Shown here in pieces: positions 14,855 to 30,361 of a DNA stretch of 38,931 nt (the first letter of the stretch is position 1; the number at the start of each line of letters is the position of its first letter). The stretch is taken from assembly GCA_027484085.1 (NCBI GenBank), contig JAIXQF010000003.1, positions 1 through 38,931 on the forward strand, given 5' to 3'. The notes below the pieces were generated by a model. The model made no database searches. It was not told the DNA's origin and saw nothing but the letters and a program-made list of their open reading frames with translations. Origin of the DNA: Actinomycetales bacterium (GTDB taxonomy: Bacteria > Actinomycetota > Actinomycetes > S36-B12 > UBA5976). A program made the position numbers and the translations under genes.

Positions 14855-15790
14855 ATGCAAGTGATTAAGAATGCGATTCTTCTCGGGCTCGGCAAAATCG
14901 GGCTCGATTATGACCTCTCTCCGTCGGGATTTTTCCCCAATCAAACCATGACGCACTTAAATGCGTTGCTTAAGTCTGATATCTATAGGATCTGCGCCGT
15001 AGCCGATGTTGATTCAACGAAGCGCGAATTTGTAAGAAATTTCTACTTCGGACCAGCTGTTAGTGACTTGAAGCAGCTCAAAGTACTTGGTGGAATCGAT
15101 TTGCTAACATTAGCAACGCCTACCTCTACGCATTTGGCAGTACTTCGCGACCTGCCAGCGAATCTCGTTCCGAAAATTATTCTGATAGAAAAACCTGTCG
15201 GGGTAAATTTGACAGAATGTATAGATATACATGATTGGGCTAGCTCAAACTCCGTTACAGTTTTTGTGAATTACTTCCGACGCCATCTGCCATCTGTAAA
15301 GCAGGCGAGAGATTATATTTCACAGCTCGAATTGGGAAGTCTCTGCTCAGTTTCTGTAGATTCTTATGGAAGCATGTTAAATATTTTTTCCCATTTTATG
15401 GATCTAGGCATGACACTCACGAACAGGAAGTTATATTGTGGCTGCCCTAAATCTAGTCTTATAAATAATGAAACTAAAAAGTCATTAGTTTGCAATAGCT
15501 GCAAAGTGGAGTATTCGTTTGTCGGTTTGCATGGCCCCAAGAAAACTAGTCAAAGCAGAATCTGTTTTGAAAACTATTCAATCGACATCCATCTAGATGG
15601 CATGGAGGTAGTAATAACAAAGTCAGATGGGACAAAGTTGGTTGAATTTAGAACCCCTGAGTCCCTGTACCTCAATTATCAAAGTCTCGTGTACTCTGAT
15701 ATTGGGCATAGATCGGAAGACTGGACCTACTTGATTGGGTTAGATCAGGCTATTCAAATTCATAAATTTGTAGAGAGCATGGTGTCATAG
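14855..15790 (+). CDS. Gfo/Idh/MocA-family oxidoreductase with a Cys-rich insertion
   Basis: A 311-residue NAD(P)-dependent dehydrogenase. The N-terminal Rossmann motif is LLGLGKIGLDYD (9-20), the family signature EKPVG is at 112-116, and SHFMDLG (179-185) holds the histidine usually seen near the active site. Relatives in polysaccharide clusters (WbpB/WlbA) oxidise C-3 of a UDP-sugar before transamination, which fits the aminotransferase that follows. Its substrate here is unknown. Unusual is a CxC-x15-CxxC arrangement at Cys195, Cys197, Cys213 and Cys216 in the C-terminal domain, which looks like a zinc site and is not part of the usual fold. First gene of a tight operon of seven; ATG at 14855 lacks an evident ribosome site. 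Confidence 0.78.
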   Translation: MQVIKNAILLGLGKIGLDYDLSPSGFFPNQTMTHLNALLKSDIYRICAVADVDSTKREFVRNFYFGPAVSDLKQLKVLGGIDLLTLATPTSTHLAVLRDLPANLVPKIILIEKPVGVNLTECIDIHDWASSNSVTVFVNYFRRHLPSVKQARDYISQLELGSLCSVSVDSYGSMLNIFSHFMDLGMTLTNRKLYCGCPKSSLINNETKKSLVCNSCKVEYSFVGLHGPKKTSQSRICFENYSIDIHLDGMEVVITKSDGTKLVEFRTPESLYLNYQSLVYSDIGHRSEDWTYLIGLDQAIQIHKFVESMVS

Positions 15791-15791
15791 G

Positions 15792-17084
15792 GTGGTAAGT
15801 AAGAACGACTTAGCGATTCTCGGTGGCAAACCTTGCATCCAGACGTCATTTATCGATTACAACTCGATCCGTTCGAGCGATGTGAAAGAAGCGTTAAAGG
15901 TCCTGGATAGTGGAAAATTGTCGAGGTTTGTGGGCACGAGTGGTGATTTCTTCTTGGGTGGCGAGTCAGTTAGATCCATGGAGGCTTCCTGGAGCTCGTA
16001 TTTTGGCACTGGCTTTGCAGTTTCATGCAATTCGTGGACTTCGGGGCTCTGGCTGGCTATCGGAGCCCTAGGGTTGGAGCCTGGGTCTGAAATTATTGTC
16101 AGCAGTTGGACAATGGCTGCAACAGCAACCACTATTCTGCATTGGAATTTGATTCCGGTGTTTGCAGACATCGACCGATTTACTTTCAATTTGGACCCGA
16201 TCGATGTAGAGAGTCGAATTACAAAACGTACCAGGGCGATAGTTTCGCCTGATATTTTCGGTCAGTCGGCAGATATTGAAAGCCTTAAAAAAATTTGCCA
16301 AAAATATGATTTGAAATTGGTGAGCGATACTGCCCAGTCCCCAGGGGCAAAACGCAACGGCTATTTTGCTGGGACTGAATCTGACATTGGAGGGTATAGC
16401 CTCAACTACCATAAACACATCCATTCTGGTGAAGGTGGAGTTGCGGTGACTAATTCCCCCGAACTTGCGCAACGAATGCAACTTCTTCGGAATCACGGGG
16501 AAGTAATTGTTGGGCAGAATCCAGAACTCGAAAATCAATTTGGAATTCTTGGCATGAACATGAGGCTCGGTGAAATTGAATCAGCAATTGCCCAAAATCA
16601 ACTTTCTTCTTTGAATGTCGCCATTGAGTCTCGTCGGAAGGCGGCACAAATTTTCTCCAGTCTTATTGCTGATTTCGTGGGAATTTCTTTGCCTGCGTTA
16701 CTGCCAGGTAACGATCATGTTTATTACGTTTATGGTTTGAAATTTAACGTTGAAGAAATCGGCGTAAGTCGCTCTACGCTTGTTAGTGCCCTCAAAGCAG
16801 AAGGAGTTCCTGCCATTCAAGAGGGTTATCAAAATATTCACACTCTGCCACTTTTCCATAAAGAACTGACGTATCGAGGAAATAAACTCCCTTATAGTCT
16901 TCTTCCAAGAAAAAGGAGAAGGGAACTTGCCGCCACTCAATTAACAGTCGCAGAAAGACTCCACCAATCTGAATTTGTAGGAATCAACTGGTGCGCAAAA
17001 AAATATTCTGATTCCGAAGTACGATTACTTGGACGCGCATTTGAAAAAGTGTGGTCTAATTTGAATTTGTTAAGAAAAATATAG
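15792..17084 (+). CDS. DegT/DnrJ/EryC1/StrS-family PLP aminotransferase
   Basis: A 430-residue sugar aminotransferase, longer than the usual 360-400. It shows SCNSWTSGLWLAIGALGLEPG (78-98), the PLP-phosphate region, SDTAQSPGA (178-186) with Asp179 for the PLP ring nitrogen, and NYHKHIHSGEGG (205-216) with Lys208 as the Schiff-base lysine. It should transfer an amino group, normally from glutamate, to a keto-sugar. Position directly after the oxidoreductase (one-base gap) suggests an oxidise-then-aminate pair, as in WbpB/WbpE. It is not PseC, which has its own gene at 24357. The amino group would then be available to the acetyltransferase domain of the next gene. GTG start, weak AGGG nearby. 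Confidence 0.85.
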   Translation: MVSKNDLAILGGKPCIQTSFIDYNSIRSSDVKEALKVLDSGKLSRFVGTSGDFFLGGESVRSMEASWSSYFGTGFAVSCNSWTSGLWLAIGALGLEPGSEIIVSSWTMAATATTILHWNLIPVFADIDRFTFNLDPIDVESRITKRTRAIVSPDIFGQSADIESLKKICQKYDLKLVSDTAQSPGAKRNGYFAGTESDIGGYSLNYHKHIHSGEGGVAVTNSPELAQRMQLLRNHGEVIVGQNPELENQFGILGMNMRLGEIESAIAQNQLSSLNVAIESRRKAAQIFSSLIADFVGISLPALLPGNDHVYYVYGLKFNVEEIGVSRSTLVSALKAEGVPAIQEGYQNIHTLPLFHKELTYRGNKLPYSLLPRKRRRELAATQLTVAERLHQSEFVGINWCAKKYSDSEVRLLGRAFEKVWSNLNLLRKI

Positions 17085-17093
17085 GTCGTTTTC

Positions 17094-18434
17094 ATGCAAT
17101 TTGATATTTTCCGCCTCACCGAAAATCAAATAAGTAATGAATATCTATCTACTTTGAACGATTCCACTTATATGCAATTTAGTCAGCATATGAAGACAAA
17201 GGCCACCAAATTTACTCAGCGCGATTACTTGAGCAGTTTCGACTTCACGACAAACTTTCTTCTTGCGATTACTGATCGACATACTGGTGAACAAGTTGCA
17301 ACGGCATCCCTCCGACTTCTTCCCGGTGGAAAAGTTGTCAACATCGGGTTCTTGGTTTTTAGAAATTTTGGAGGGAAAGGGTTAGGAAAAAAAATCTTTC
17401 GAGAATTGTCTGCCTGGGTCTTTAATCTATTCCCGCTAACTGCGCAGCAAATTGGCACGCGGCAAGAAAATTTTGGCATGCAGAGAATCGCGCTTTCTGC
17501 CGAATTTCTTGTTGATAAAACTCGCAGCGATAGAGAATATGTGTACTTCATTAAAGAGGCAACGATTGCTCCCGAACTCCTGGAATTTATCGATGCGGAT
17601 ATTCACATTGTTTGTAATGACGCTGGAGGTGCGCTAAACATTTCAGCGCTTGCAAACGCTCTTATTCAGAATGCGACCGTGACTTTAGCTGGTCCAGCGG
17701 TAGATATCTTTGCCAATAATTGTCCGGCTATAACCAACTTAGACATCTCCTCTCAACTTCTAGCCGAGAAGAATTTTCTTCTTGGCTCCGGGTTTTACGG
17801 CGGCCTAGAATCTCGGGTGCTAGAAAATATTCATTTCCGTTCGAACAAGAAAGCAGTGCTTATTGATCACTGGGTGAATTACAAGGAAAGATTCGATCCT
17901 AATTTAGAGAATTTGCCCGATGCGATATTTGTTACAAACTTACGGGCAGAGGTTATAGCTAACAAAAACTTTCCACAGACAAAAGTGGTCAGAATTCCGG
18001 ATTTTCTCCTTGCGGATCAGAGGCGAAATTTTTTGACTAGAGAAGTTGTTCAAAATAGCATCTTAGTTATTCTTGAACCGAATCCGCTGAAAGGTTCTGG
18101 CTTAGACTATCAGATTAAAGGATTAGAATCATATTTGCCTACAATTTTTGATTTCTGCCGGAAGCATGAACTGACCGAAGTTATTTTGAGGCCCCATCCT
18201 GCGCAAGCACTCGATAAGAATTTGAATTGGGTTGGAATTGCTACCGGCATTCAGGTTCGTTTTTCCGAGTCTGATTCGCTTGTTGAAGATTTATTAAATG
18301 CCAAAGCGGTATTTGGTTTCCATTCTTCTGCGCTTTATGCTTCTGCAATGTTGGGCGTCGAAACATATAGTTTTTTTGCGAAGAATTCTGGTCACTGGAC
18401 TGGCCTGTTTCCTGAAATTTTAGGGATTGATTAG
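17094..18434 (+). CDS. GNAT acetyltransferase fused to a GT-B-like (sialyltransferase-like?) domain
   Basis: A 446-residue two-domain protein. Residues 1 to about 155 look like a GNAT N-acetyltransferase: the strand ATASLRLLPGGKVVNIGFLV followed by RNFGGKGLGKKIF (about 92-104), the Q/RxxGxG/A acetyl-CoA loop, and a C-terminal strand-helix with RQENFGMQRIALSAEF. Residues from about 165 onwards start with IHIVCNDAGGALNISALANA and later contain RPHPAQ (about 364) and FGFHSSALYASAMLGVETYSF (about 401-421), which resemble the HP and S/T-S motifs of polysialyl- and CDP-glycerol transferase-like GT-B enzymes. The first domain could acetylate the amino group made by the preceding gene or act as PseH; the second could transfer the nonulosonate. 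Both are inferences. A TAGG element precedes the ATG by eight bases. Confidence 0.6.
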   Translation: MQFDIFRLTENQISNEYLSTLNDSTYMQFSQHMKTKATKFTQRDYLSSFDFTTNFLLAITDRHTGEQVATASLRLLPGGKVVNIGFLVFRNFGGKGLGKKIFRELSAWVFNLFPLTAQQIGTRQENFGMQRIALSAEFLVDKTRSDREYVYFIKEATIAPELLEFIDADIHIVCNDAGGALNISALANALIQNATVTLAGPAVDIFANNCPAITNLDISSQLLAEKNFLLGSGFYGGLESRVLENIHFRSNKKAVLIDHWVNYKERFDPNLENLPDAIFVTNLRAEVIANKNFPQTKVVRIPDFLLADQRRNFLTREVVQNSILVILEPNPLKGSGLDYQIKGLESYLPTIFDFCRKHELTEVILRPHPAQALDKNLNWVGIATGIQVRFSESDSLVEDLLNAKAVFGFHSSALYASAMLGVETYSFFAKNSGHWTGLFPEILGID

Positions 18435-18435
18435 C

Positions 18436-19563
18436 ATGAAATACTGCCTAAGGTGCCTTCAGCCAAATTCTAGACCGGGGACAGTATTTATCGAAGGTGT
18501 TTGTCCTGCTTGCGAATTTAAGTTTACTTCGACCAAATGGGACTGGCAAAATCGAAAGCGCATCTTGAAACATGTCGTACATACTCGAAAAGCTGTAGGG
18601 CATGAATCAGGCCATGATTCTGTACTAGGAGTAAGCGGAGGGAAAGACAGTACGCGGTTAGCATTGTTTGCGCGAGATGCTTTGGGTTTGAATCCACTAT
18701 TAGTTGCAGTCACTTATCCACCGGAACAGATGACAATAGCAGGATCGAGGAATTTAAATAATTTAAACAACCTTGGTTTTGACGTGTATCAAACTTCTCC
18801 ATCGCCGACAACCTGGAAATTATTAATGAGAGCTGCATTTCTGGAATCAGCCAATTGGGCTAAGAGCACTGAGCTAGCTCTATTTTCGGGAGTTCCACAA
18901 ATCGCAATAGAGAATGGTCTTGAACTGGTTCTGTGGGGTGAGAATCCGGGACTTCAACTTGGCGCCCTAGAAACTCTGGGAAAAGAAGGATGGGATGGAA
19001 ATTCCCTTAGAAACATGAATACTTTGGCTGGTATGAATGAACAATGGTTACTCGGCCAAAATATTGATGAATCTCATATCGGTCCTTATCTATTTCCAAG
19101 TAAATCTGAATTTGAGAAACACAATCTCCAAGTTGTTTTCTTGGGGTGGGCTATGGGTAATTGGGGTCTACTTGAAAATGGTCTAATGTCGGGTTTAGTC
19201 GGACTTCAAGGTCGAAGAGACTCGGCAACAAATACATCTGATTTGATTTATTTGACGTCTTTGGACGAAGATTGGGTAATTCTTAACCAAATGATTAAGT
19301 ACTATAAATATGGATTTGGACGTGCAACCGACTATGTAAATGAATGGATTAGAACCGGACGGATAACGAGATCTGAAGGCATTCCGTTGGTTCAAAAATT
19401 TGATGGGGTTTGTGCTGATCGTTACATCGAATCGTTTTCCAGTTTTATTGGGATAACCACTCGTGAATTTTGGTTAACCGTGAGGAAGTTTTCAAATGCA
19501 AACCTTTTTGATTTAAGTGGCCATGGGCGCCCTAAACCCCTATTTAATGTGGGGCAATTATGA
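18436..19563 (+). CDS. pseA: N-acetyl sugar amidotransferase, PseA/WbpG-type (first copy)
   Basis: A 375-residue PP-loop ATPase that should adenylate an N-acetyl group and replace its oxygen with ammonia, giving an acetamidino group. It has an N-terminal zinc-ribbon with Cys4/Cys7 and Cys23/Cys26, the ATP pyrophosphate loop SGGKDS (67-72), the WGENPG segment and the C-terminal KYGFGRATDYVNEWIRTGRI typical of this family. In Campylobacter jejuni PseA, with neighbouring HisH/HisF homologues, forms the acetamidino derivative of pseudaminic acid; in Pseudomonas WbpG acts on a ManNAc3NAcA-type sugar. The frame runs upstream to a TTG at 18427, but family members start with MKYCxRC, so ATG at 18436 is chosen, two bases after the previous stop. 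The stop overlaps the HisH start in ATGA. Confidence 0.85.
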   Translation: MKYCLRCLQPNSRPGTVFIEGVCPACEFKFTSTKWDWQNRKRILKHVVHTRKAVGHESGHDSVLGVSGGKDSTRLALFARDALGLNPLLVAVTYPPEQMTIAGSRNLNNLNNLGFDVYQTSPSPTTWKLLMRAAFLESANWAKSTELALFSGVPQIAIENGLELVLWGENPGLQLGALETLGKEGWDGNSLRNMNTLAGMNEQWLLGQNIDESHIGPYLFPSKSEFEKHNLQVVFLGWAMGNWGLLENGLMSGLVGLQGRRDSATNTSDLIYLTSLDEDWVILNQMIKYYKYGFGRATDYVNEWIRTGRITRSEGIPLVQKFDGVCADRYIESFSSFIGITTREFWLTVRKFSNANLFDLSGHGRPKPLFNVGQL

Positions 19564-20156
19564 AAACAGCGGTTGTGGTTGACTATGGGGCGGGTAACGT
19601 TGGATCGATATCAAATTTTCTCAGAAATTTTGATTTTAAGGTTAAAATTTCGAGTGCGGCCAAGTGCATAATGGATGCAGATTTGGTTGTGCTGCCTGGT
19701 GTAGGATCATTTGGACCTGCTAAATTAAGTCTAGATTTCATTCAAGCATGCCAATCAATCCTTAATAGAGCCAGTGCTGGGAAACCAATTCTCGGAATCT
19801 GTCTTGGGTTTCAGCTAATGACAATGTCCTCTCAGGAGTCAGAAGGTACTTCTGGGTTAGGCTTATTTCATGCCACAACGAGAAGACTGATGGATGGCCC
19901 CGTAATCGGTTGGGCCGAAACCTTTCCCAGCAATGCATCAATCACCCCTAATGGATCGTATTACTTCAATCATTCCTTCGGTGTTTTTGAGACATCAGAT
20001 TTTGATGTTTACACTCTTTCTGGGAGCGAGCCCTACATCGCATACGCGCGAAAAAATAAAATGGTAGGAACTCAATTCCATCCTGAAAAGAGTCAGCAGG
20101 CTGGCATTGATTTTTTCGTGACACTTTTGAATGATTGTTGGCAGGAGCTTAAATGA
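19560..20156 (+). CDS. HisH-type glutaminase supplying ammonia to the amidotransferases
   Basis: A 198-residue class-I glutamine amidotransferase. Catalytic Cys81 lies in GICLGFQLM (79-87), and His174 and Glu176 in QFHPEKS; GVGSFG (47-52) forms the oxyanion region. It hydrolyses glutamine and passes ammonia to a HisF-like partner. In histidine biosynthesis HisH/HisF build imidazole glycerol phosphate, but here both lie between two sugar amidotransferases, with ATGA overlaps on both sides, and no other his gene is present. As in Campylobacter (Cj1314-Cj1316) and Pseudomonas (HisH2/HisF2) the pair most likely feeds the sugar amidination step. Confidence 0.88.
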   Translation: MKTAVVVDYGAGNVGSISNFLRNFDFKVKISSAAKCIMDADLVVLPGVGSFGPAKLSLDFIQACQSILNRASAGKPILGICLGFQLMTMSSQESEGTSGLGLFHATTRRLMDGPVIGWAETFPSNASITPNGSYYFNHSFGVFETSDFDVYTLSGSEPYIAYARKNKMVGTQFHPEKSQQAGIDFFVTLLNDCWQELK

Positions 20157-20902
20157 AAAAGCTCGCGGCGACGGTTCTAGTAAAAGACGGGATTGTTGTA
20201 AACTCGTTGAGCTTTCGCAATTATAGGCCAATTGGTTCTGTTGACCAGATTATTACAAGATTGCAGGAGTGGGAGGTCGACGAAATTACTGTTTTGAATC
20301 TTTCTCATTCAAGCAATCCATTGAGGGATTTCAATCAAACATTTTCGGAATCTCTACTAAGTGGAATCAACACACCAATCGCTTATGGTGGCGGGATCAC
20401 AAGTAAGTCAGATGCAGAATCCATCATTGCTGCGGGATCTGAAAGAGTGGTTCTTTCGGCATTTCATTGGACTGCAGAGAAATCAAGGGAAATTTCGGTT
20501 AACCTGGGCGATCAAGCCGTTCTCATCCATGTACCCCTTGTTCAGCGAGGGGGTGTTTTTTTAGTGGGAAATACACCTTCAACTTTTCAAGATTTTCTGG
20601 CCCATATACCCGGGGATTGGGGGGGCGAGTTATTCATTAAGGATCAAAACATGGATGGAAATACATCCCGGGTAGAATTCTTCAAGAGGGTATCGACCTT
20701 CACCAATAATCTAACTTCCCCTATTCTCGCTGGGGGAGGGATATCTAGCTTAAAGGAAGTTGAGGCGCTTCTGCAATTACCCTTTATCAAGGGCGTTGCT
20801 ATCGGTAACTGGCTCAATAGAGAGGAATTGATTATTCCCCGAATTAAACATGGGATTGGAACATCTATACGCTTGCGAGATCTTATGGGGTTTGTAAAAT
20901 GA
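20153..20902 (+). CDS. HisF-type ammonia-channel subunit, apparently without cyclase catalytic residues
   Basis: A 249-residue (beta/alpha)8 protein of the HisA/HisF family. YGGGI (78-82) and AGGGI (193-197) are the phosphate-binding loops, and both N- and C-terminal half-barrels are recognisable. In true HisF, Asp11 and Asp130 catalyse the cyclase reaction. By hand alignment the corresponding positions here are Leu9 (ATVLVKDG in place of ACLDVKDG) and Pro128 (LIHVPLVQRG in place of VAIDAKR), so cyclase activity is probably lost and the barrel acts as the ammonia tunnel between HisH and a PseA-like partner. The start overlaps the stop of the HisH-like gene and the stop overlaps the next start, both as ATGA. 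Confidence 0.82.
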   Translation: MKKLAATVLVKDGIVVNSLSFRNYRPIGSVDQIITRLQEWEVDEITVLNLSHSSNPLRDFNQTFSESLLSGINTPIAYGGGITSKSDAESIIAAGSERVVLSAFHWTAEKSREISVNLGDQAVLIHVPLVQRGGVFLVGNTPSTFQDFLAHIPGDWGGELFIKDQNMDGNTSRVEFFKRVSTFTNNLTSPILAGGGISSLKEVEALLQLPFIKGVAIGNWLNREELIIPRIKHGIGTSIRLRDLMGFVK

Positions 20903-22089
20903 TAGTGAGATGCAGCGAGTGTTTATACTGGTCAAATCATCCCCTCGGAATCACTTTTGATGCACAGGGAGTCTGTTCTGGCTGCCAAGTACATAGAGAA
21001 AAAAATCAGCTTAATTGGAGACAAAGGCAGGCTGAATTAAAAACTATTTTTGATTCTCAGAGGCAGCAGTCCAGATATGACTGCATTATTCCTGTTACCG
21101 GTGGTCAAGATTCTTTTTTTACTGTGCATTATGCAGTTCACATCCTCGGTCTAAACCCATTATTAGTTAACTTTAACCGAACATTCAACAGCAAGGAAGG
21201 AATTCGCAATCTTGCCAAGCTTCGGACCGAGTTCGATGTAGATTTTCGTCAATACAGTATTAACCCAAAGGTAACAAAGGCTGTTATGGCTTGCACTCTT
21301 ACTAATCTAGGCTCATTGAATTGGTTATGGATAGCCGGGCAAACATCACTTCCGGTTCGAATAGCAGTCCAATTGGAAATTCCCTTTATTTTATGGGGGG
21401 CGCACCAAGGTCTTGAGCAAGTTGGAATGTACTCTCACCTTGAGAATGTAGAAATGACGAGGCGATATCGCCGCGAACATGACTTAATGGGGTACGATGA
21501 AACGGGTATTTTTGAGTTTGATCCCAACTTTAGTGAAGAAGATATAGCATCTGTTTCTTATCCCACAGATCAGGAATTAATTAATTCAGGAGTTAGAGGA
21601 ATTTACTTAGGCAATTATGTACGTTGGGATCCCACGGCACAACATACACTTATGTCAAAACTTTACGGCTATGAGGGCAGAAGGGCGATTAGGGGATATT
21701 CTAAGTTCGATAATCCAGATTGCCCAGTGTATTTCGGGGTCCAAGACTTGTTAAAGCAAGCGAAGTTTGGTTACTCGAAGGCCACAGATCAGCTCACCAG
21801 AGAAATTCGACACGGTCGAATTTCGAGAGCAAAGGCCTTGAAGGTCGAAAGACAACTTTTATCCGCAAATCCCGAAGGTGTGCGCGATTTTGCTGACTGG
21901 ATGGGAATTTCCCTCGCTACAGTGAATACCTTACTCCTACAACATTCCCCCGACTTCGCAATTAAGGTTCTCGAGGATGATTGGCGTAATAAAAAGTTTA
22001 ATATTCCGATAAAAGAAAAAATCTCAGCTTTGTTAAGAAGTAAGGAATCAATCGATCACGACTTTCAAAGCATCGGTAAGGGAATCTAA
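20899..22089 (+). CDS. N-acetyl sugar amidotransferase, PseA/WbpG-type (second copy)
   Basis: A 396-residue paralogue of the gene at 18436. It has the same layout: zinc-ribbon cysteines Cys5/Cys8 and Cys26/Cys29, an ATP PP-loop at 67-72, IPFILWGAHQG, and the C-terminal KFGYSKATDQLTREIRHGRI. The PP-loop reads TGGQDS instead of SGGKDS, so Ser becomes Thr and Lys becomes Gln; the family often varies at the fourth position, so activity may be kept. Having two such enzymes around one HisH/HisF pair suggests amidination of two different sites or sugars. Last gene of the operon; its TAA overlaps the TAG of the convergent pseF in the four bases CTAA. Confidence 0.84.
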   Translation: MIVRCSECLYWSNHPLGITFDAQGVCSGCQVHREKNQLNWRQRQAELKTIFDSQRQQSRYDCIIPVTGGQDSFFTVHYAVHILGLNPLLVNFNRTFNSKEGIRNLAKLRTEFDVDFRQYSINPKVTKAVMACTLTNLGSLNWLWIAGQTSLPVRIAVQLEIPFILWGAHQGLEQVGMYSHLENVEMTRRYRREHDLMGYDETGIFEFDPNFSEEDIASVSYPTDQELINSGVRGIYLGNYVRWDPTAQHTLMSKLYGYEGRRAIRGYSKFDNPDCPVYFGVQDLLKQAKFGYSKATDQLTREIRHGRISRAKALKVERQLLSANPEGVRDFADWMGISLATVNTLLLQHSPDFAIKVLEDDWRNKKFNIPIKEKISALLRSKESIDHDFQSIGKGI

Positions 22090-22787
22090 TTGGGTTCAAT
22101 TAATTTACGTGCTTTAAATAACGTGACTGCCAATTCCAGGTCTTCGGGAGTATCAATGTCTATATACTCGTAAGGCTTACAAATTAATCCTTTGGAATCT
22201 TTACCGAAGATTGATACTTTTCTCTCCCATGCTTCTCTTCTTCCCCAATAAAATTGGCCTGTGTCATGATAGGTGGGACGTAAATCCTGAGTTCTCATCA
22301 ATACATTCTGTGGATCAATCATGTTAACCCCTCCGTCTTCTTCTAGGAGTAGACCACGTTGAATTGGGGGTAAGTACTCCTGGACAGGAAAAACATAAGA
22401 GCTTCCAGTTTCAAGCAACATTTTGTAGCCAAGAATCAAATGCGATGGCCGCACAAAGATAGATGAGGGGTATATGCAACAAATATATTCAGGAATTGAG
22501 GCACCTAACCAATCTGTAGATAAAGCATCTGCCATTACATCGTAAGTGTTTGCGAAATCATCACTTAATTCCTTGCTCCGAAGCCTTGGAACGAGCGCTC
22601 CAAATCTTTGTGAAATTTCGGATATCTCTTCGTCATCAGTTGACACAATTACACTCGAAAATATTTCTGACTGAATCGCTGTCAAAACTGCTCTAGCAAC
22701 CATGGGAATTCCATCTACCATCTGAATGTTCTTTCGGGGAATTCGTTTACTTCCACCGCGTGCTGGAATGATTGCAATAGGTTTCAT
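22086..22787 (-). CDS. pseF: Pseudaminic acid cytidylyltransferase (CMP-nonulosonate synthetase)
   Basis: A 233-residue enzyme that should couple CTP to the free nonulosonate to form the CMP donor. The N-terminus IAIIPARGGSKRIPRKNI is the CTP-binding signature of the acylneuraminate cytidylyltransferase family. The later HDTGQFYWGRREAW is the variant seen in PseF rather than in sialic acid synthetases. It follows pseI with an ATGA overlap, which places synthesis of pseudaminate and its activation in one unit. A CMP-legionaminate synthetase is the alternative, but the neighbouring synthase is of PseI type. Last gene of the - strand pse operon; its stop overlaps the convergent amidotransferase. 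Confidence 0.88.
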   Translation of the reverse strand: MKPIAIIPARGGSKRIPRKNIQMVDGIPMVARAVLTAIQSEIFSSVIVSTDDEEISEISQRFGALVPRLRSKELSDDFANTYDVMADALSTDWLGASIPEYICCIYPSSIFVRPSHLILGYKMLLETGSSYVFPVQEYLPPIQRGLLLEEDGGVNMIDPQNVLMRTQDLRPTYHDTGQFYWGRREAWERKVSIFGKDSKGLICKPYEYIDIDTPEDLELAVTLFKARKLIEPN

Positions 22788-23797
22788 TCTAAAAGCTCTG
22801 CTCCCATGGGGGTTCCAGCTTCGTAATTCTCTTTGTATCTTCTCCCAAGCCAGGCCTCAAGATATTTTGGTGGCGCTCCCTCTCCAGGACGTATGGCACG
22901 TAAGTTTTCTTGTGTAACTTTATCTCCAGCTTTCACATCTTTAACAATGAATAGCGATCGCCGGAGTCGTCTAGATTCATATTCTGAGGGTTGGATTTCC
23001 CATTCACGGCTACCTAGAGCCATTTGGGCAGCATTTCCTTCGGCGACCAACATTTCGAATTCGCGGGGCTCCATAGAAAATGCACCGTCCACAGCTCCAG
23101 AACCTCGATCTAAAGTTATATGCTTTTCGATGGCCGTGGCGCCCAAAGCGACAGCCGCGATAGATACTCCAATACCAAGAGTGTGGTCAGACAATCCAAC
23201 TTTGACTTCGAATTTCTCCCGCAATAGGTCCATTCTTCTGAGATTGGCATCCATCGGTTTGGCTGGATAAGAACTCGTACATACCAAAAGAGTTAAGTCG
23301 CTATTTCCTGTTGCTCTAAAAGTGGTCACAAGATCATCTATTTCATCTAATTCTGTTGCACCTGTTGAGATGATCGTTGGTTTCCCAGTTTCACCAACAA
23401 GGCGAATTAGCTGAAGATCTGAGGTTTCCAATGATGCAATCTTGTACATCTGAACATCCAGTGCTTCTAGGAATTCGACCGCCGTGGGATCAAAAGGGGA
23501 ACTGAAAGGGATAACTCCCCGAGAGCGGCAATGATCAAATAGCTCTGCGTGCCACTCCCATGGCGTCATAGCCTCTTCATATAGGCTATAAAGCGTTCTT
23601 CCTCCCCAAAGGTCGTGATCCGATACAACCGAAAATTTATCAAGATTTAGAGTCATCGTTTCGGGCGTATATGTTTGAAATTTTACAGACGTTGCTCCCG
23701 CGGTAGCGGCTGCGTCGACGAGAGCATGTGCCTTGTCAAGAGATCCTGCGTGATTTCCAGATACTTCGGCGATGAAATTAATCTTGGTGCTTATCAC
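22784..23797 (-). CDS. pseI: Pseudaminic acid synthase (NeuB family)
   Basis: A 337-residue synthase that should condense phosphoenolpyruvate with the 2,4-diacetamido-2,4,6-trideoxy-L-altrose released by PseG. The N-terminal barrel contains IAEVSGNHAGSL, VKFQTYTPETMTL, LWGGRTLYSLYEEAMTPWEWH (the PseI-type active-site segment, differing from NeuB of sialic acid), CTSSYPA and GLSDHTLGI. The C-terminal SAF domain is recognisable at RRSLFIVKDVKAGDKVTQEN. Start GTG at 23797 with GGGGA six bases upstream; it lies inside the last codons of the acyltransferase, overlapping by 20 bases. The next gene, pseF, overlaps its stop. Length fits the family (330-350). Confidence 0.9.
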   Translation of the reverse strand: MISTKINFIAEVSGNHAGSLDKAHALVDAAATAGATSVKFQTYTPETMTLNLDKFSVVSDHDLWGGRTLYSLYEEAMTPWEWHAELFDHCRSRGVIPFSSPFDPTAVEFLEALDVQMYKIASLETSDLQLIRLVGETGKPTIISTGATELDEIDDLVTTFRATGNSDLTLLVCTSSYPAKPMDANLRRMDLLREKFEVKVGLSDHTLGIGVSIAAVALGATAIEKHITLDRGSGAVDGAFSMEPREFEMLVAEGNAAQMALGSREWEIQPSEYESRRLRRSLFIVKDVKAGDKVTQENLRAIRPGEGAPPKYLEAWLGRRYKENYEAGTPMGAELLE

Positions 23798-24356
23798 TTA
23801 TTTCCCCATCTAGTAAATTCTTTTCTAATATCAACAAATTTTTACTTCTATTTTTTATTCTTCGCACTGGAGATCCCATGTAAATACCCCAAGGCTCAGT
23901 TGACTTGTTGACCAAAGAATTCGCACCTATTGCACATCCTTCCCCGATGTTCACGTTAGGGAATACAATCGAATTGGTTCCTAATATTACATGTCTTCCT
24001 ATCCTGATCTTTCCGTGACTTATTCTTTTAAATTCCCTCGGCACAGTAGGATTGGTCATGGATTCACCTGAATAATCGTCAGATGATGAAAATAATCTAC
24101 AGCCAAATGCAAGACCTGCAAAATCTTGAATCTCAATTTCCTGCTCACTGGCCACAATCGAATTCATTACAGCGATGTGGACATTCCTTCCGATAGTTAC
24201 CCATCCTGATAATGCGCAGAAGTCATCCACTCTTGAGTTATCACCTATCGACATCAAGTGAGGCTTGTCAAAGCTAGCCAGAGAGCTTAACTTTACATTA
24301 ACGCCGATATACTTAAAATTTAAAGCGTTGATTTCCCGTGGATTCATGAAAGGCAT
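23778..24356 (-). CDS. Hexapeptide-repeat (left-handed beta-helix) acyltransferase
   Basis: A 192-residue acetyltransferase. Repeats of the form [I/V]-G-x-x-x-x are visible (SIGDNSRVDDF, VTIGRNVHIAV, IRIGRHVILGTNSIV, NIGEGCAIGANSLV). The N-terminal half resembles galactoside and amino-sugar O/N-acetyltransferases. It stands between pseC and pseI, the position where other clusters encode the acetylation step (PseH, a GNAT protein). It is therefore a candidate for N-acetylating the 4-amino group of the PseC product, or for O-acetylating the nonulosonate. The ATG directly abuts the pseC stop; an internal ATG three codons later is an alternative start. Confidence 0.75.
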   Translation of the reverse strand: MPFMNPREINALNFKYIGVNVKLSSLASFDKPHLMSIGDNSRVDDFCALSGWVTIGRNVHIAVMNSIVASEQEIEIQDFAGLAFGCRLFSSSDDYSGESMTNPTVPREFKRISHGKIRIGRHVILGTNSIVFPNVNIGEGCAIGANSLVNKSTEPWGIYMGSPVRRIKNRSKNLLILEKNLLDGEISDKHQD

Positions 24357-25484
24357 TTACAATTCGCTTTCGATTGAGATAACTAGTTTCTCAAAATATT
24401 CTTCGGTCCACTGGCTTTCGGAGACCCACATGGGGAGTGAAATTTCTGACTTATAGAATTGTTCACTGTTGGTGAGGGGCAAATCTTTTCTTACGGATTT
24501 TCCAAAGACGGGGTGCCAGTGAGCCGGGATATAGTTTACTTGCACCCCAAAACCATCCATTCGTAATCTTTCAAATATTGCTTTTCTTTTTTCTATCGGC
24601 ACTCTGATTGGGTAGAGGTGCCACATCGGATTGCTATCCGCTAGCCTCCGAGGTAATTTAATACTCGAAATGCCAGATAACGCTAATCCATAATTATCAA
24701 AAAGCTCGTCTCTCTTGGCCTTAAAGTAATCTATCCTACTTATTTGTGAAATGCCTAGAGAGCACAGAATGTCTGAAAGGCGATAGTTAAGTCCAAATTC
24801 ATGCACTTCTTGATGCCAATCACCTTCCGTTTTGATTAGAAACTCATCTTTATCACGAATCAAGCCTTGTCTTGAAAATCGGCGTGCCTTTTGGAGCAGA
24901 TTCGGATGAATCGATGCAACAGCTCCACCCTCTGCTGTTGTCATATTTTTAGTTGGGAAGAATGAGAAAGTGGTTAAATCGGCTATTGAACCGACTGGTC
25001 GGTTTTTGTAAATGCTTCCAATTGAATGCGCCGCATCCTCAATTAAAAATATGCCGTGCTTATTGGCAATAACTCTTAATTCATCAAGGCATGCGGGGTG
25101 TCCAGCAAAATCAACTGCAACAATTGCCTTAGTCCGAGAAGTAATTGCCGCCTCTACAGCGCTGGGATCTATATTTCCTGTGTCTAGCTGGATATCTACA
25201 AAAACAATTTTGGCACCGAGAAGAGCAGCTGTAGCCTGAGTGGCAATAAATGTTATCGGCGGAGTGATGATTTCATCACCAGGTCCAATTCCAAGGGCAG
25301 CATATGCACAATGAAGTGCTGCCGTTCCGGAAGAAACAACTACACATGGTGCGCCTACAACTTGTTCAATTTCCCGCTCGAATAGTTCAACTTGTGGCCC
25401 GGTAGTCAGAAAATCACTTTTTAGGGCACTGATGACAGCTGCAATATCATCGTCATTAATTGACTGTCGTCCATAAGGAATCAT
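24357..25484 (-). CDS. pseC: UDP-4-amino-4,6-dideoxy-N-acetyl-beta-L-altrosamine transaminase
   Basis: A 375-residue PLP enzyme of the DegT family. SSGTAALHCAYAALGIGPGDE (51-71), PPITFIAT, IEDAAHSIG (148-156) with Asp150, and SFFPTKNMTTAEGG (174-187) with Lys179 as the Schiff-base lysine are visible. It should aminate C-4 of the keto sugar made by PseB using glutamate. The C-terminal part HWHPVFG is also seen in PseC. It starts six bases after pseB. Assignment to PseC rather than to another 4-aminotransferase rests on the neighbours. Confidence 0.88.
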   Translation of the reverse strand: MIPYGRQSINDDDIAAVISALKSDFLTTGPQVELFEREIEQVVGAPCVVVSSGTAALHCAYAALGIGPGDEIITPPITFIATQATAALLGAKIVFVDIQLDTGNIDPSAVEAAITSRTKAIVAVDFAGHPACLDELRVIANKHGIFLIEDAAHSIGSIYKNRPVGSIADLTTFSFFPTKNMTTAEGGAVASIHPNLLQKARRFSRQGLIRDKDEFLIKTEGDWHQEVHEFGLNYRLSDILCSLGISQISRIDYFKAKRDELFDNYGLALSGISSIKLPRRLADSNPMWHLYPIRVPIEKRKAIFERLRMDGFGVQVNYIPAHWHPVFGKSVRKDLPLTNSEQFYKSEISLPMWVSESQWTEEYFEKLVISIESEL

Positions 25485-25490
25485 TCTAAT

Positions 25491-26468
25491 TTAGATTTCT
25501 TTAAGAAAAAATTGAATATCTTCTCGTGACATCCATAAGTCGTTGGTGTTGGATTGATAAGCAACACCCTCTTCCATCAATGTCCCCTCTGGTAATTTAA
25601 ATCCCCATTCAGCCACAACGGGAGTAACCACGTATCGGTCTTTCATGAGATAAGTTCTACGACTATCATCAGCAGAAATCATTTCTTCATGCAGTTTTTC
25701 ACCTGGTCGCATTCCTATTTCGAAAAGTGGCGCATCCGCTGCAACCGCAGATGCAAGATCAACAATTCGCATGCTTGGAATTCTAGGTACGTACAACTCT
25801 CCCCCACGCATTATATCCAGTGATTCAATCACAAATTGAACTGCTTGTTCGAGGCTAATCCAGAATCTTGTCATTCTCAAGTCTGTAATCGGAAGCGCGT
25901 GACCAGCCTCGGCCAAAGATTTCCAATACGGGATGACTGAGCCACGACTTCCCATAACGTTTCCATACCTAACGACAGAAAATACTGTTCCATAACTGTA
26001 ACTATAGTTATTAGCCGCCACAAATAATTTATCCGCAGTCAATTTTGTCGCACCATACAGGTTAATGGGAGATGATGCCTTATCTGTTGAAAGAGCAACT
26101 ACCTTTTTGACGCCAGCTTCGATTGAAGCGTCAATCACATTTTGGCTCCCAAGCACATTAGTTTTGATGAACTCCATCGGATTGTATTCACCCGTGTCCA
26201 CCTGCTTTAACGCCGCTGCGTGAATCACGAAATCAACATTATGTAAGGCACGCCTTAGTCTGTCTGCATCTCGGATGTCTCCGATAAACCAACGTAGGCG
26301 CTCGTCCTCCCCAATTTCATTTCGCAGATTGTGTTGTTTAAGTTCATCACGAGAATAAATTGCCATTCTTCGGACCTTAGAACTCTTCAGCAAGTAATTA
26401 ATTAGCGCTTTACCTAAAGAACCAGTTCCTCCAGTAATCAAGACTGAAGCGTTGTCTAACTGAGACAT
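25491..26468 (-). CDS. pseB: UDP-N-acetylglucosamine 4,6-dehydratase (inverting)
   Basis: A 325-residue SDR that dehydrates UDP-GlcNAc at C-4/C-6 and inverts C-5, the first step of pseudaminate synthesis. It has GGTGSLGKAL (13-22), SRDELKQH (39-46), HAAALKQVD, and STDKASSPINLYGATK (127-142) with Asp129, Lys130 and Tyr138 in the spacing known for PseB/FlaA1. RYGNVMGSRGSVIP is also typical of this family. The GTG/ATG choice is clear: ATG at 26468 has GGGGGA about five bases before it. It is divergent from pseG over about 60 bases. Confidence 0.92.
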   Translation of the reverse strand: MSQLDNASVLITGGTGSLGKALINYLLKSSKVRRMAIYSRDELKQHNLRNEIGEDERLRWFIGDIRDADRLRRALHNVDFVIHAAALKQVDTGEYNPMEFIKTNVLGSQNVIDASIEAGVKKVVALSTDKASSPINLYGATKLTADKLFVAANNYSYSYGTVFSVVRYGNVMGSRGSVIPYWKSLAEAGHALPITDLRMTRFWISLEQAVQFVIESLDIMRGGELYVPRIPSMRIVDLASAVAADAPLFEIGMRPGEKLHEEMISADDSRRTYLMKDRYVVTPVVAEWGFKLPEGTLMEEGVAYQSNTNDLWMSREDIQFFLKEI

Positions 26469-26493
26469 AAATTCCCCCGGGGCGGTTCAAAGC

Positions 26494-26521
26494 TTGTGAA
26501 ATATCGAATACAGCATACCCT
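26494..26521 (+). promoter_or_regulatory. Promoter for pseG
   Basis: TTGTGA (26494-26499) and TACCCT (26516-26521) are 16 bases apart. The ATG of pseG at 26530 is eight bases past the -10, so the mRNA would have almost no leader. No ribosome site is seen. Confidence 0.4.
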
Positions 26522-26529
26522 TGTTTCCC

Positions 26530-27501
26530 ATGAGAATCATTTTTCGTGCAGACGCTTCACGGAAAATTGGTGCTGGTCATGTGATGAGGTCATCCGTCTT
26601 AGCCGAGGAAGCGATTCAAAGAGGCTATGAATGTATTTTCGTAGGAAGCGTCACTGGGCTTAGTTGGGTTTCAGGGCATATCAATGCACTTGGTTTTGCT
26701 CAAATAATTGAAGATGAAAATCTATTTGTACCTAAAATCGAATCAGATGTTCTGATCATCGATTCTTACTCAATTCCAATTTCTGACTCATTCATTGTCA
26801 AGAGTAATTGGAAGCTCGTATTGAGTATTTGTGACGAATCTACACCTAGGTATGAATCTGATATCGAGCTTAGGCCGGGACTAGCGAGAATCCTAGGGAG
26901 CGACAACGGTAAATTAGTGTTGTCTGGTCCAGAGTATATTTTGGTTCGTAAGGGTATCGAGAAGAATAGGGTAAGAACAAATACGACAGAAGCCCTCAAG
27001 GTACTGATCATGGGTGGGGGTTCAGATCCATTTGGATTCGTTCCTTCAATTACAAAATTTTTAAGTTCTTTACAATTGAAATTGGAAGTTCATTTATTTT
27101 CAAACACTGAAATCTCTGAGAAATCTACGATGACTTTGATTAATCATCAAGTTGGTTCCGAGCTAGATAGGGTTGCGGGTGAGGTTGACGTCGTGTTCTG
27201 TACAGCGAGCACCTCTAGTCTCGAGTTCATTGCTAGAGAAATTCCAACAGGTGTTGTATGTTCGATAGACAATCAAAACGACTATTACGCTCAGTTGGGG
27301 GAGCTCGGCTTCGCCGCACAACTTGGATATTTAGGTTTAGACGGAAAGTGGGTCTTCAATTTGCAAGAAATACGAGCACTTTTAGAAAACCGAGAGAGAC
27401 GAGATACCTTGGCGAAGGCAACTCACATGTTGATTGATTTACATGGGGCTGCTCGAGTCATAGATATCCTAGAGCTGATGTCAGTTTTAAGCAGCAATTA
27501 G
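26530..27501 (+). CDS. pseG: UDP-2,4-diacetamido-2,4,6-trideoxy-beta-L-altropyranose hydrolase
   Basis: A GT-B-like hydrolase of 323 residues from the ATG at 26530; it removes UDP to release the free hexose that PseI condenses. The N-terminus FRADASRKIGAGHVMRS carries the GxGHxxR pattern with His17, the position reported as the catalytic base in PseG. LIMGGGSDPFG and FCTASTSSLEFIAREIP represent the nucleotide-binding half. A TTG at 26521 could extend it by three residues, but the second Met begins at the conserved strand. It is divergent from pseB. Its TAG overlaps the stop of the convergent VOC gene in TTAG. Confidence 0.87.
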   Translation: MRIIFRADASRKIGAGHVMRSSVLAEEAIQRGYECIFVGSVTGLSWVSGHINALGFAQIIEDENLFVPKIESDVLIIDSYSIPISDSFIVKSNWKLVLSICDESTPRYESDIELRPGLARILGSDNGKLVLSGPEYILVRKGIEKNRVRTNTTEALKVLIMGGGSDPFGFVPSITKFLSSLQLKLEVHLFSNTEISEKSTMTLINHQVGSELDRVAGEVDVVFCTASTSSLEFIAREIPTGVVCSIDNQNDYYAQLGELGFAAQLGYLGLDGKWVFNLQEIRALLENRERRDTLAKATHMLIDLHGAARVIDILELMSVLSSN

Positions 27502-28204: not shown

Positions 28205-29362
28205 TTATTTACGCGCTAATTGGCACATCAGCGCTTCGCAGGCAACTAGCGGGGCGGCATTGTGCCCAAGGTTACTGCGGGCTTCCATTAGTGCGTTGAT
28301 CTTGAGGATAGTCGAATGCTCTGGGTGAAATGAAGCGTAGCTTTCAATTTCTTCACGCATATCCGTATTGATCATCGATTCTGTATTGCCGGATTGCACC
28401 ATCATCACATCACGGTAGAAGGTGGCGATATCAAGAAGTGCGCCATCGATGGAGTCGCGAACCATTCGGGTCGAGCGAGACTTCTGCTCCTTTTCAAGTT
28501 CTTTCACGGCTTTAGCTCCACCTGATGCCATGCCCCGACCCGTAGCCCCTTTGCCATAAGCCTCTTGGAGTTTTTCAATTTCTTTTTCATCGCGCTCATC
28601 TGATGATGAATAGGCTTCAGCGGTCGCAATATCTACAAGGGTTTGCGCTGCTTGAAATGCTCCCGCTAGGGAGCCTAATTGCATTGGTAATTGCATAATG
28701 AGCTTGCGATTACTGCGCACTGACTCATCGGTAGCCAAATACTTTGCACGCCCAATATGTCCTTGGCTTACTCGTGCTGCAAAGTCAGCCATTCCCGGTG
28801 CAATGTTGTCACGGTTGATTAAGACTTTAGTAACGGCCTCGAGAGATGGTGTGTGAAGTTGAAGGTGGCGGCAACGTGAGCGAATTGTTGGCAACACATC
28901 ATGAAGTGTGGGAGCGCAGAGCAACCAAACGGTTCTCGCTCCTGGTTCTTCGATAGCTTTAAGTAGAGCGTTAGCTGCTGATTCAGTAAGTCGATCCGCA
29001 TCTTCCATGACAACTACTCGCCAACCACCCATGGAAGGTGCCCAGGCAAAGCGAGTGAGAAGTTCCCGCACTTCTTCCACTTTGATTGATAAACCTTCGG
29101 TGCGAATTATTTCAACATCGGGATGTCCACTAGTTTTGGCTGCTTGGCAGTCCGAGCAGTTGCCACAGCCACTGTTAGTGCAGATCAGCGCTTGTGCAAA
29201 GGCGACTGCAGCTGAAGAGCGACCTGAACCTGGAGGACCCGTGAAGACCCAGGCATGCGTCATTTCCTGTGATTCTTCGCTTGTGCGAGAGGCGACAACA
29301 GCGCCTTCCAGTATCTCAATTATGTGTTCTTGACCTACAAGGTCATCAAATACTGAAGTCAT
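28205..29362 (-). CDS. holB: DNA polymerase III subunit delta'
   Basis: A 385-residue clamp-loader subunit. The N-terminal AAA+ domain shows QEHIIEIL (11-18), the Walker-like GPPGSGRSS (42-50), a zinc module with Cys61, Cys66, Cys69 and Cys72, VVVMEDADRLTESAANALLKAIEEP, and SRCRHL, the sensor-1/arginine-finger region. The length and the Lys/Glu-rich linker near 255-300 fit actinobacterial delta'. In actinobacteria it usually follows tmk directly; here a sugar-nucleotide dehydratase lies between them. Its ATG abuts that gene's TAG. Confidence 0.9.
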   Translation of the reverse strand: MTSVFDDLVGQEHIIEILEGAVVASRTSEESQEMTHAWVFTGPPGSGRSSAAVAFAQALICTNSGCGNCSDCQAAKTSGHPDVEIIRTEGLSIKVEEVRELLTRFAWAPSMGGWRVVVMEDADRLTESAANALLKAIEEPGARTVWLLCAPTLHDVLPTIRSRCRHLQLHTPSLEAVTKVLINRDNIAPGMADFAARVSQGHIGRAKYLATDESVRSNRKLIMQLPMQLGSLAGAFQAAQTLVDIATAEAYSSSDERDEKEIEKLQEAYGKGATGRGMASGGAKAVKELEKEQKSRSTRMVRDSIDGALLDIATFYRDVMMVQSGNTESMINTDMREEIESYASFHPEHSTILKINALMEARSNLGHNAAPLVACEALMCQLARK

Positions 29363-30361
29363 CTACTCTAGCTTCCATTTTCGTTCTGGAGTGTCACTAT
29401 CAAGTATTTCAAGGTCGAAATCAACCATTGCTTTAATCATTACTTGAAAGGTGGTTGTCGGTGCCCAACCCAAAGTTTTGTGGGCCTTCGTTGCATCACC
29501 TACGACAGAAATGACATCTGCAGGCCGAGAAAGTGATGGGTCTATCTGTAGGAAATTCTCCCATTCTAGGATATCAATACAAGCAAACGCTGTTCTAACA
29601 AATTCCCTCAGCGTGTGCGATCTTCCTGTAGCTAAGATGAAATCATCTGGGCTGCTGTGATTAAGTATCGAAATCATTCCATCTACATAATCAGGTGCCC
29701 ATCCCCAATCTCGGGAAATATCAAGATTTCCCAGCGTTATTGAATCAGCCTTACCTCGGGCGATTTTTGCGACACCACTTGTGATCTTTCGGGTTACAAA
29801 TTTTAAGTCTCGCAATGGTGACTCGTGGTTGAAAAGAATCCCAGTTGATGCAAATTGGCCAAAAGATTCACGGTAGTTCACTACCAGGTGGTGTGCCGCG
29901 ACTTTGCTGACTCCATATGGAGATCTTGGGTGAAGTAAGGTTTCTTCTGTTTGAGGGTAACTCTTTGGAAGTCCAAACATTTCACTACTTGAAGCATGAT
30001 AGAAACGAGTAGAATGCATTCTTAGCGCATTAAGCGCATTAAGCCAATTAAGCGTATAAAAAATATTGGTTTGAAGCGTAATTTCTGAGTCACTCCATGA
30101 ATTTGCTACCGAACTCTTTGCGCTGAGGTGGTAAATCTGTTCTGGCTGAGCTCTTTCGAGGAATTCAACCACTGTCTTTAGTACAGAAGAATCCAGTATT
30201 TCGACTTGAATACCTGGGTTGTAAAGCCGCAGAAAAGTCTTCTGCTCTTCATTTCTGACAATACCAATCACATGATGGCCAGCATTTGCGAGCTTTAATC
30301 CGAGAATCAGTCCGTCTTGGCCCGCAGCCCCGGTTATAACAATTCTTTTTGGGGTAGTCAT
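29363..30361 (-). CDS. gmd: GDP-mannose 4,6-dehydratase-like enzyme
   Basis: A 332-residue extended SDR. It has IVITGAAGQDG (7-17), SSSEMFG, SPYGVSK (YxxxK), FNHESP and FVTRKIT, and ISRDWGWAPDYVDGM, a set characteristic of GDP-mannose 4,6-dehydratase. The usual RRG after FNHESP is replaced by LRD, so the nucleotide-binding loop is somewhat divergent. It should form GDP-4-keto-6-deoxymannose, precursor of fucose, rhamnose or perosamine; the second enzyme is not in this window. It is placed exactly between tmk and holB: TAA-ATG on one side and TAG-ATG on the other, with no spare base. Its base composition looks more AT-rich than tmk upstream, closer to the glycan genes. Confidence 0.83.
   Translation of the reverse strand: MTTPKRIVITGAAGQDGLILGLKLANAGHHVIGIVRNEEQKTFLRLYNPGIQVEILDSSVLKTVVEFLERAQPEQIYHLSAKSSVANSWSDSEITLQTNIFYTLNWLNALNALRMHSTRFYHASSSEMFGLPKSYPQTEETLLHPRSPYGVSKVAAHHLVVNYRESFGQFASTGILFNHESPLRDLKFVTRKITSGVAKIARGKADSITLGNLDISRDWGWAPDYVDGMISILNHSSPDDFILATGRSHTLREFVRTAFACIDILEWENFLQIDPSLSRPADVISVVGDATKAHKTLGWAPTTTFQVMIKAMVDFDLEILDSDTPERKWKLE

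Follow-up and report, generated by a model that had tools for sequence, protein, structure and literature searches.

An old gene unit pairing an intact and a degenerate N-acetyl sugar amidotransferase around one HisH/HisF pair in a pseudaminic acid locus

The locus and its two amidotransferase-family genes

The stretch of DNA considered here (the window) comprises 38,931 nucleotides of contig JAIXQF010000003.1 from an Actinomycetales bacterium, and its region of interest (14855-27501) holds two genes of the N-acetyl sugar amidotransferase (NASAT) family TIGR03573, named SynA and SynB in this report, on either side of a single HisH/HisF pair. They belong to a seven-gene operon on the plus strand (Gfo/Idh/MocA, DegT2, GNAT-GT-B, SynA, HisH, HisF-like, SynB) in which neighbouring genes show short overlaps or gaps of fewer than 10 bases, the run from SynA to SynB being joined by four-base overlaps. 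The operon faces a pseB-pseC-AcT-pseI-pseF run and pseG, and the end of SynB overlaps the end of pseF (Table 1). A preliminary description of this DNA had reported these genes, their order and their coordinates, and all are present, with intact open reading frames and matches to the named profiles. Its two NASAT-family proteins and its pseudaminic acid setting were likewise confirmed, with PseB, PseI and PseF passing their equivalog cut-offs and PseC and PseG being best matches yet below theirs. The overlapping operon that it had drawn at 18436-22089 is real but longer, with three more upstream genes from 14855. For SynA, an alternative upstream TTG start is possible at 18427.

SynA keeps all pocket residues that are invariant in the family, with the loop SGGKDS, the motif GEN and the zinc cysteines C4, C7, C23 and C26. 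In the one solved NASAT structure found, this SGGKDS loop has been proposed as the ATP-pyrophosphatase site (PMC10607449). In the window's SynB this loop reads TGGQDS and the second motif GAHQ, with Ala at the position of the GE Glu, and the four zinc cysteines are kept. Residues were counted in 121 aligned NASATs, a five-member SGGVDS-type subfamily being excluded from the counts, and SynBs from 18 loci were compared with 98 SynA and ordinary NASATs. The PP-loop Lys is present in 98/98 of the latter versus 0/18 SynBs, the third PP-loop Gly in 98/98 versus 3/18, and the GE Glu in 97/98 versus 0/18. SynB loops at other loci include SGARDS, TGAYDS, TSSSDS, TAANDS, SGTGDD, VGSGDD and RGTPEY, while the mildest are TGGQDS in the window, SGGQDS in G1486 (cyanobacterial class) and SGGRDA at locus L139.

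The zinc cysteines and Lys291 are kept in all 18 SynBs, and about 30 positions, many of them in residues 10-34, 92-103 and 174-194, are conserved in at least 17 of the 18 and rare among other NASATs; SynB therefore appears to be under selection for something else. Its predicted model (predicted local distance difference test, pLDDT, 82.6) matches the Legionella LpNASAT structure (PDB 8wex) with a Z score of 34.5 over 332 residues. The possibility that SynB is a decaying pseudogene was rejected, as the frame is intact at every locus, the zinc cysteines are invariant and the private residues are conserved.

The HisH protein, aligned to 1ka9_H, keeps the Cys in GICLG and the QFHPEKS motif, so that the Cys-His-Glu triad is present. 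The HisF-like protein has Leu and Pro at the positions of HisF Asp11 and Asp130, both of which are kept by the genome's own HisF, and its best profiles, WbuZ (TIGR03572, 84.4 of 299.7 bits) and AglZ/HisF2 (NF038364, 72.6 of 310 bits), are matched far below their equivalog cut-offs. Because separate hisA and hisF genes lie on another contig (C2) of the same genome, the pair in the cassette is a dedicated one, in agreement with the ammonia supply proposed in the preliminary description; a role of this pair in histidine synthesis was rejected on the same ground and on the loss of the cyclase aspartates. Since both of these aspartates are lost, the HisF-like protein most likely serves as a barrel or conduit only and would no longer be a cyclase.

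Table 1. Genes of the region of interest, with positions in the window and the evidence for each name.
Feature	Coordinates	Strand	Evidence
Gfo/Idh/MocA oxidoreductase, first gene of the operon	14855..15790	+	PF01408 41.5 bits; accompanies the cassette in other phyla
DegT2, DegT/DnrJ sugar aminotransferase	15792..17084	+	PF01041 245.8 bits; PseC/LegC-like, below those cut-offs
GNAT N-acetyltransferase domain fused to GT-B domain	17094..18434	+	PF13302, domain split, fold comparison
SynA, NASAT with intact pocket motifs	18436..19563	+	TIGR03573 224.8 bits (cut-off 203.2), alignment, clade 100/99
HisH-type class I glutaminase	19560..20156	+	TIGR01855 143.4 bits (cut-off 105.4); triad kept
HisF-like putative ammonia-conduit subunit	20153..20902	+	PF00977; Asp11/Asp130 positions Leu/Pro
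SynB, second NASAT-family protein, degenerate pocket	20899..22089	+	TIGR03573 277.9 bits (cut-off 203.2), alignment, model
PseF, CMP-pseudaminate synthetase	22086..22787	-	TIGR03584 257.9 bits (cut-off 205.7)
PseI, pseudaminate synthase	22784..23797	-	TIGR03586 427.2 bits (cut-off 340.3)
Hexapeptide-repeat acetyltransferase	23778..24356	-	PF00132, NeuD-like
PseC-like aminotransferase	24357..25484	-	TIGR03588 388.3 bits (cut-off 423.5), best match
PseB, UDP-GlcNAc 4,6-dehydratase (inverting)	25491..26468	-	TIGR03589 468.8 bits (cut-off 407.8)
PseG-like UDP-sugar hydrolase	26521..27501	+	TIGR03590 88.4 bits (cut-off 153.6), best match

Phylogeny and distribution of the unit

In a tree reconstructed with the pocket columns excluded (the named references WbpG, PseA and PtmG being absent from it), SynA and SynB fall into distinct clades, both supported at 100/99. 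The two proteins are 26% identical, and each clade has orthologues in several phyla, for which reasons a recent tandem duplication was rejected. The SynB alignment was scanned against 84,980 species, yielding 11 loci, and whole-genome surveys added further loci. The preliminary description had proposed a search of related genomes for the order synthetase-hisH-hisF-synthetase, and this order does recur in several phyla. One-to-one orthologues in the arrangement SynA-HisH-HisF-SynB are found in Actinomycetota (the window, G057 and casp15-mb.155), Omnitrophota, Marinimicrobia, Gammaproteobacteria including SAR86, a Myxococcota/'Deltaproteobacteria' genome and, within the Cyanobacteriota, Prochlorococcus plus two more genomes assigned to the cyanobacterial class. 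This order is an old unit. A related order, HisH-HisF-SynB-SynC, occurs in G948, in one Planctomycetota genome and in another SAR86 genome; its last gene, SynC, encodes an intact NASAT belonging to a third clade.

Co-occurrence was counted from the SynB side, and the counts make no claim for the SynA side, many survey NASAT matches not having been classified singly. At each of the 17 SynB loci whose flanks are visible, an intact NASAT lies adjacent to SynB or across HisH-HisF from it (14 SynA, 3 of another clade). At L074 the contig stops before the expected position of SynA, and at L025 (G160) it ends 158 bases past SynA, the partner region falling outside the contig. The distance matrices of SynA and SynB are correlated with r 0.49, a value reached in 74 of 5000 permutations.

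The sister group of SynB has intact motifs (SGGKDS) and includes a 681-residue protein in which a HisF-like domain and an intact NASAT are naturally fused (L183:1426-3471, minus strand, G1510), which fits the idea of SynB as a HisF-docking subunit. Paired intact NASATs, both with SGGKDS, are found in Omnitrophota either as a single protein of 830 residues (L191:7270-9762, G1363) or in tandem (L192:8264-10780, G1321). The fusion in G1363, together with the crystallisation of LpNASAT as a dimer (PMC10607449), indicates that NASATs can pair. No relatives of SynB were found in the viral contigs or phage records searched, and the plasmids searched held only single ordinary NASATs of about 31% identity or less.

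The role of SynB

Gene trios such as WbpG/HisH2/HisF2 of P. aeruginosa and WbuX/WbuY/WbuZ of E. coli O145 resemble the present cassette in that a NASAT, a dedicated glutaminase and a HisF-like conduit together give an acetamidino sugar, but they differ in having one NASAT, no SynB and hexose substrates. WbpG and WbuX are cited as NASATs in PMC10607449. LpNASAT shares the fold and the four zinc cysteines of SynB, whereas its own SGGKDS and GEN motifs are intact and it is 22-23% identical to SynB. In C. jejuni and C. coli, two NASATs, PseA (Cj1316c) and PtmG (Cj1324), occur together with the HisH/HisF pair Cj1315c/Cj1314c (PMC12102941), and both are acetamidino synthases (PMC13317340). Their nonulosonate setting and single nearby HisH/HisF pair are as in the window (PMC12102941, PMC13317340), but PseA and PtmG act on different sugars (pseudaminic and legionaminic acid) and do not flank HisH/HisF. 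Two NASATs near one HisH/HisF pair are hence already known, contrary to the rule of one synthetase per pair put forward in the preliminary description, while the fixed flanking order is undescribed in the literature searched. We know of no other dedicated HisH/HisF pair in C. jejuni or C. coli. Searches of open-access papers for NASATs, for partners that are pseudoenzymes and for triamino nonulosonates found no description of this unit, which is a real and conserved variant of the NASAT/HisH/HisF system.

We favour, with moderate confidence and mainly on sequence evidence, the view that the genes at 18436-22089 encode one amidine-forming enzyme system, with SynA as the working synthetase, HisH/HisF as its supply and SynB as a conserved, probably non-catalytic partner. 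HisH would free ammonia from glutamine and the HisF-like barrel would convey it without cyclase chemistry, while SynA would use ATP at its PP-loop to activate the carbonyl of one sugar N-acetyl group, with NH replacing O. The expected product would be a sugar of the pseudaminic acid type bearing one acetamidino group. SynB would be an obligate, probably non-catalytic subunit of NASAT fold within such a complex, most likely acting as the dock between SynA and the ammonia-supplying HisF/HisH pair or shaping the substrate site. The features behind this view are the order conserved across phyla, the residue losses of SynB within a kept fold, the separate clades, the lost HisF aspartates and the link to pse genes. 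Such a pattern would suit an enzyme turned partner subunit, for which docking to HisF is a natural guess.

Several observations weigh against this view. The TGGQDS loop of the window's SynB is near the SGGxDS consensus, and one SynB of the cyanobacterial class reads SGGQDS; the window's copy is thus among the least degenerate and may have residual or second activity. Our literature search found no NASAT in which a catalytic need for the Lys or Glu had been tested. Moreover, L139:6855-10640 (G1209) carries DegT2-SynA-SynB without HisH/HisF in 18 kb, so that either HisH/HisF are located elsewhere or ammonia is used directly.

The preliminary description had taken as simplest that two N-acetyl groups, carried either by one nonulosonate or by two sugars, become acetamidino groups, with both SynA and SynB active and sharing one HisH/HisF pair. 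Both proteins do score over the TIGR03573 cut-off, the mild loop and four zinc cysteines of the window's SynB would suit activity, the arrangement of two NASATs with one HisH/HisF pair has a real counterpart in Campylobacter, and paired intact NASATs are present in Omnitrophota. However, every member of the SynB clade, the window's included, lacks both the GE Glu and the PP-loop Lys (18/18 each), and most lack the third Gly (15/18); we regard two amidines as a minority reading and an unlikely one; one amidine appears likelier than two. These losses point to inactivity of one paralogue, an outcome that the preliminary description had itself set against its proposal, although the evidence is one of motifs and the window's copy is mild. 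Less probable still is that SynB is active in a changed way, binding ATP or sugar and performing a different step (e.g., binding or handing over an intermediate) with no second amidination. The private conserved positions and the retained fold would agree with this, but it points to no known reaction, and loops such as RGTPEY, TAANDS and SGTGDD make use of ATP unlikely in those members. Returning to the system with a single working synthetase, one amidine would merely balance the carboxylate of the sugar, and on this chemical reasoning the product would be a zwitterion and not the strongly cationic sugar once envisaged.

The mechanism of NASATs is little understood, our search having found one solved structure and no complex, and a pair of intact and degenerate members offers a handle on ammonia delivery and sugar binding. 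It also changes how such clusters are read, in that two NASAT genes need not imply two amidines. Surface sugars of aquatic bacteria matter in encounters with phages and grazers, and the cassette marks a nonulosonate pathway that is widespread among such bacteria, Prochlorococcus and relatives of SAR86 among them, and that has yet to be characterised.

Sugar substrate and co-travelling genes

The link between the cassette and pseudaminic acid genes extends beyond the window. For example, L193 (cyanobacterial class) carries pseB-pseC-pseF-SynA-HisH-HisF-SynB-pseG-pseI on one strand, L072 has the order pseF-pseG-pseI-Gfo-DegT2-GNAT-GTB-SynA-HisH-HisF-SynB, and at L080 the cassette also lies among pse genes. 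In the window, the hexapeptide-repeat acetyltransferase is a probable stand-in for PseH. The genome yielded no match to the flagellin N-domain. A DegT2 orthologue is present in 12/15 SynA-SynB genomes versus 0/3 SynB-SynC genomes, mostly accompanied by the Gfo, GNAT and GT-B genes; the window's DegT2 reaches 192.8 of the 423.5 bits needed for the PseC profile.

The protein encoded at 17094-18434 comprises a GNAT domain (about residues 1-155) and a GT-B domain (about 167-446), which are separate genes in other genomes, and its predicted model has a mean pLDDT of 74.5. The GNAT domain matches known folds with Z scores up to 15.9 (PseH 4ri1, 14.1) and gives the locus a second N-acetyltransferase in addition to the hexapeptide-repeat enzyme. 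For the GT-B domain, Pfam and PDB sequence searches gave nothing convincing and no Pfam family covers it. Its model matches a polysialyltransferase with CDP (5wcn) with a Z score of 13.9 over 255 aligned residues, but with a root-mean-square deviation of 5.8 in a model of the pLDDT given above. A polysialyltransferase-like domain, so assigned by fold only, would suit a CMP-nonulosonate transferase.

Taken together, the co-travelling Gfo, DegT, GNAT and polysialyltransferase-like functions hint at one more amino group on the sugar and a transferase of its own. The target of the cassette could then be a further amino group (e.g., at C8, made by Gfo and DegT2, with the GNAT domain supplying the acetyl group) or a separate sugar, instead of the 5- or 7-N-acetyl group, which we consider possible but doubtful and which is compatible with any view of SynB. 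The distribution of DegT2 and the placement of Gfo-DegT2-GNAT-GTB between pse genes and cassette at L072 argue for it, and an 8-amino nonulosonic acid does occur naturally, in Flexibacter maritimus (PMC3210612). On the other hand, the cassette of L193 sits in a complete pse operon in a genome without a DegT2 orthologue, and none is seen in Prochlorococcus G888, a genome that may be incomplete. A route that begins with one more amino group, possibly on C8, and goes on through acetylation to amidination is consistent with these data but unproven. More tentative, and in our judgement rather unlikely as a whole, is the combined picture of a heteromeric amidine synthetase with an obligate pseudo-synthetase which, with Gfo/DegT/GNAT, would give a triamino acetamidino nonulosonate attached to the surface by a dedicated CMP-sugar transferase.

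The sugar island borders housekeeping genes (28205-32410 of the window). A GDP-mannose dehydratase-like gene (29363-30361, named by profile) is flanked there by two genes named by eye, one of the DNA polymerase III delta' type and the other for an apparent MFS transporter-thymidylate kinase fusion.

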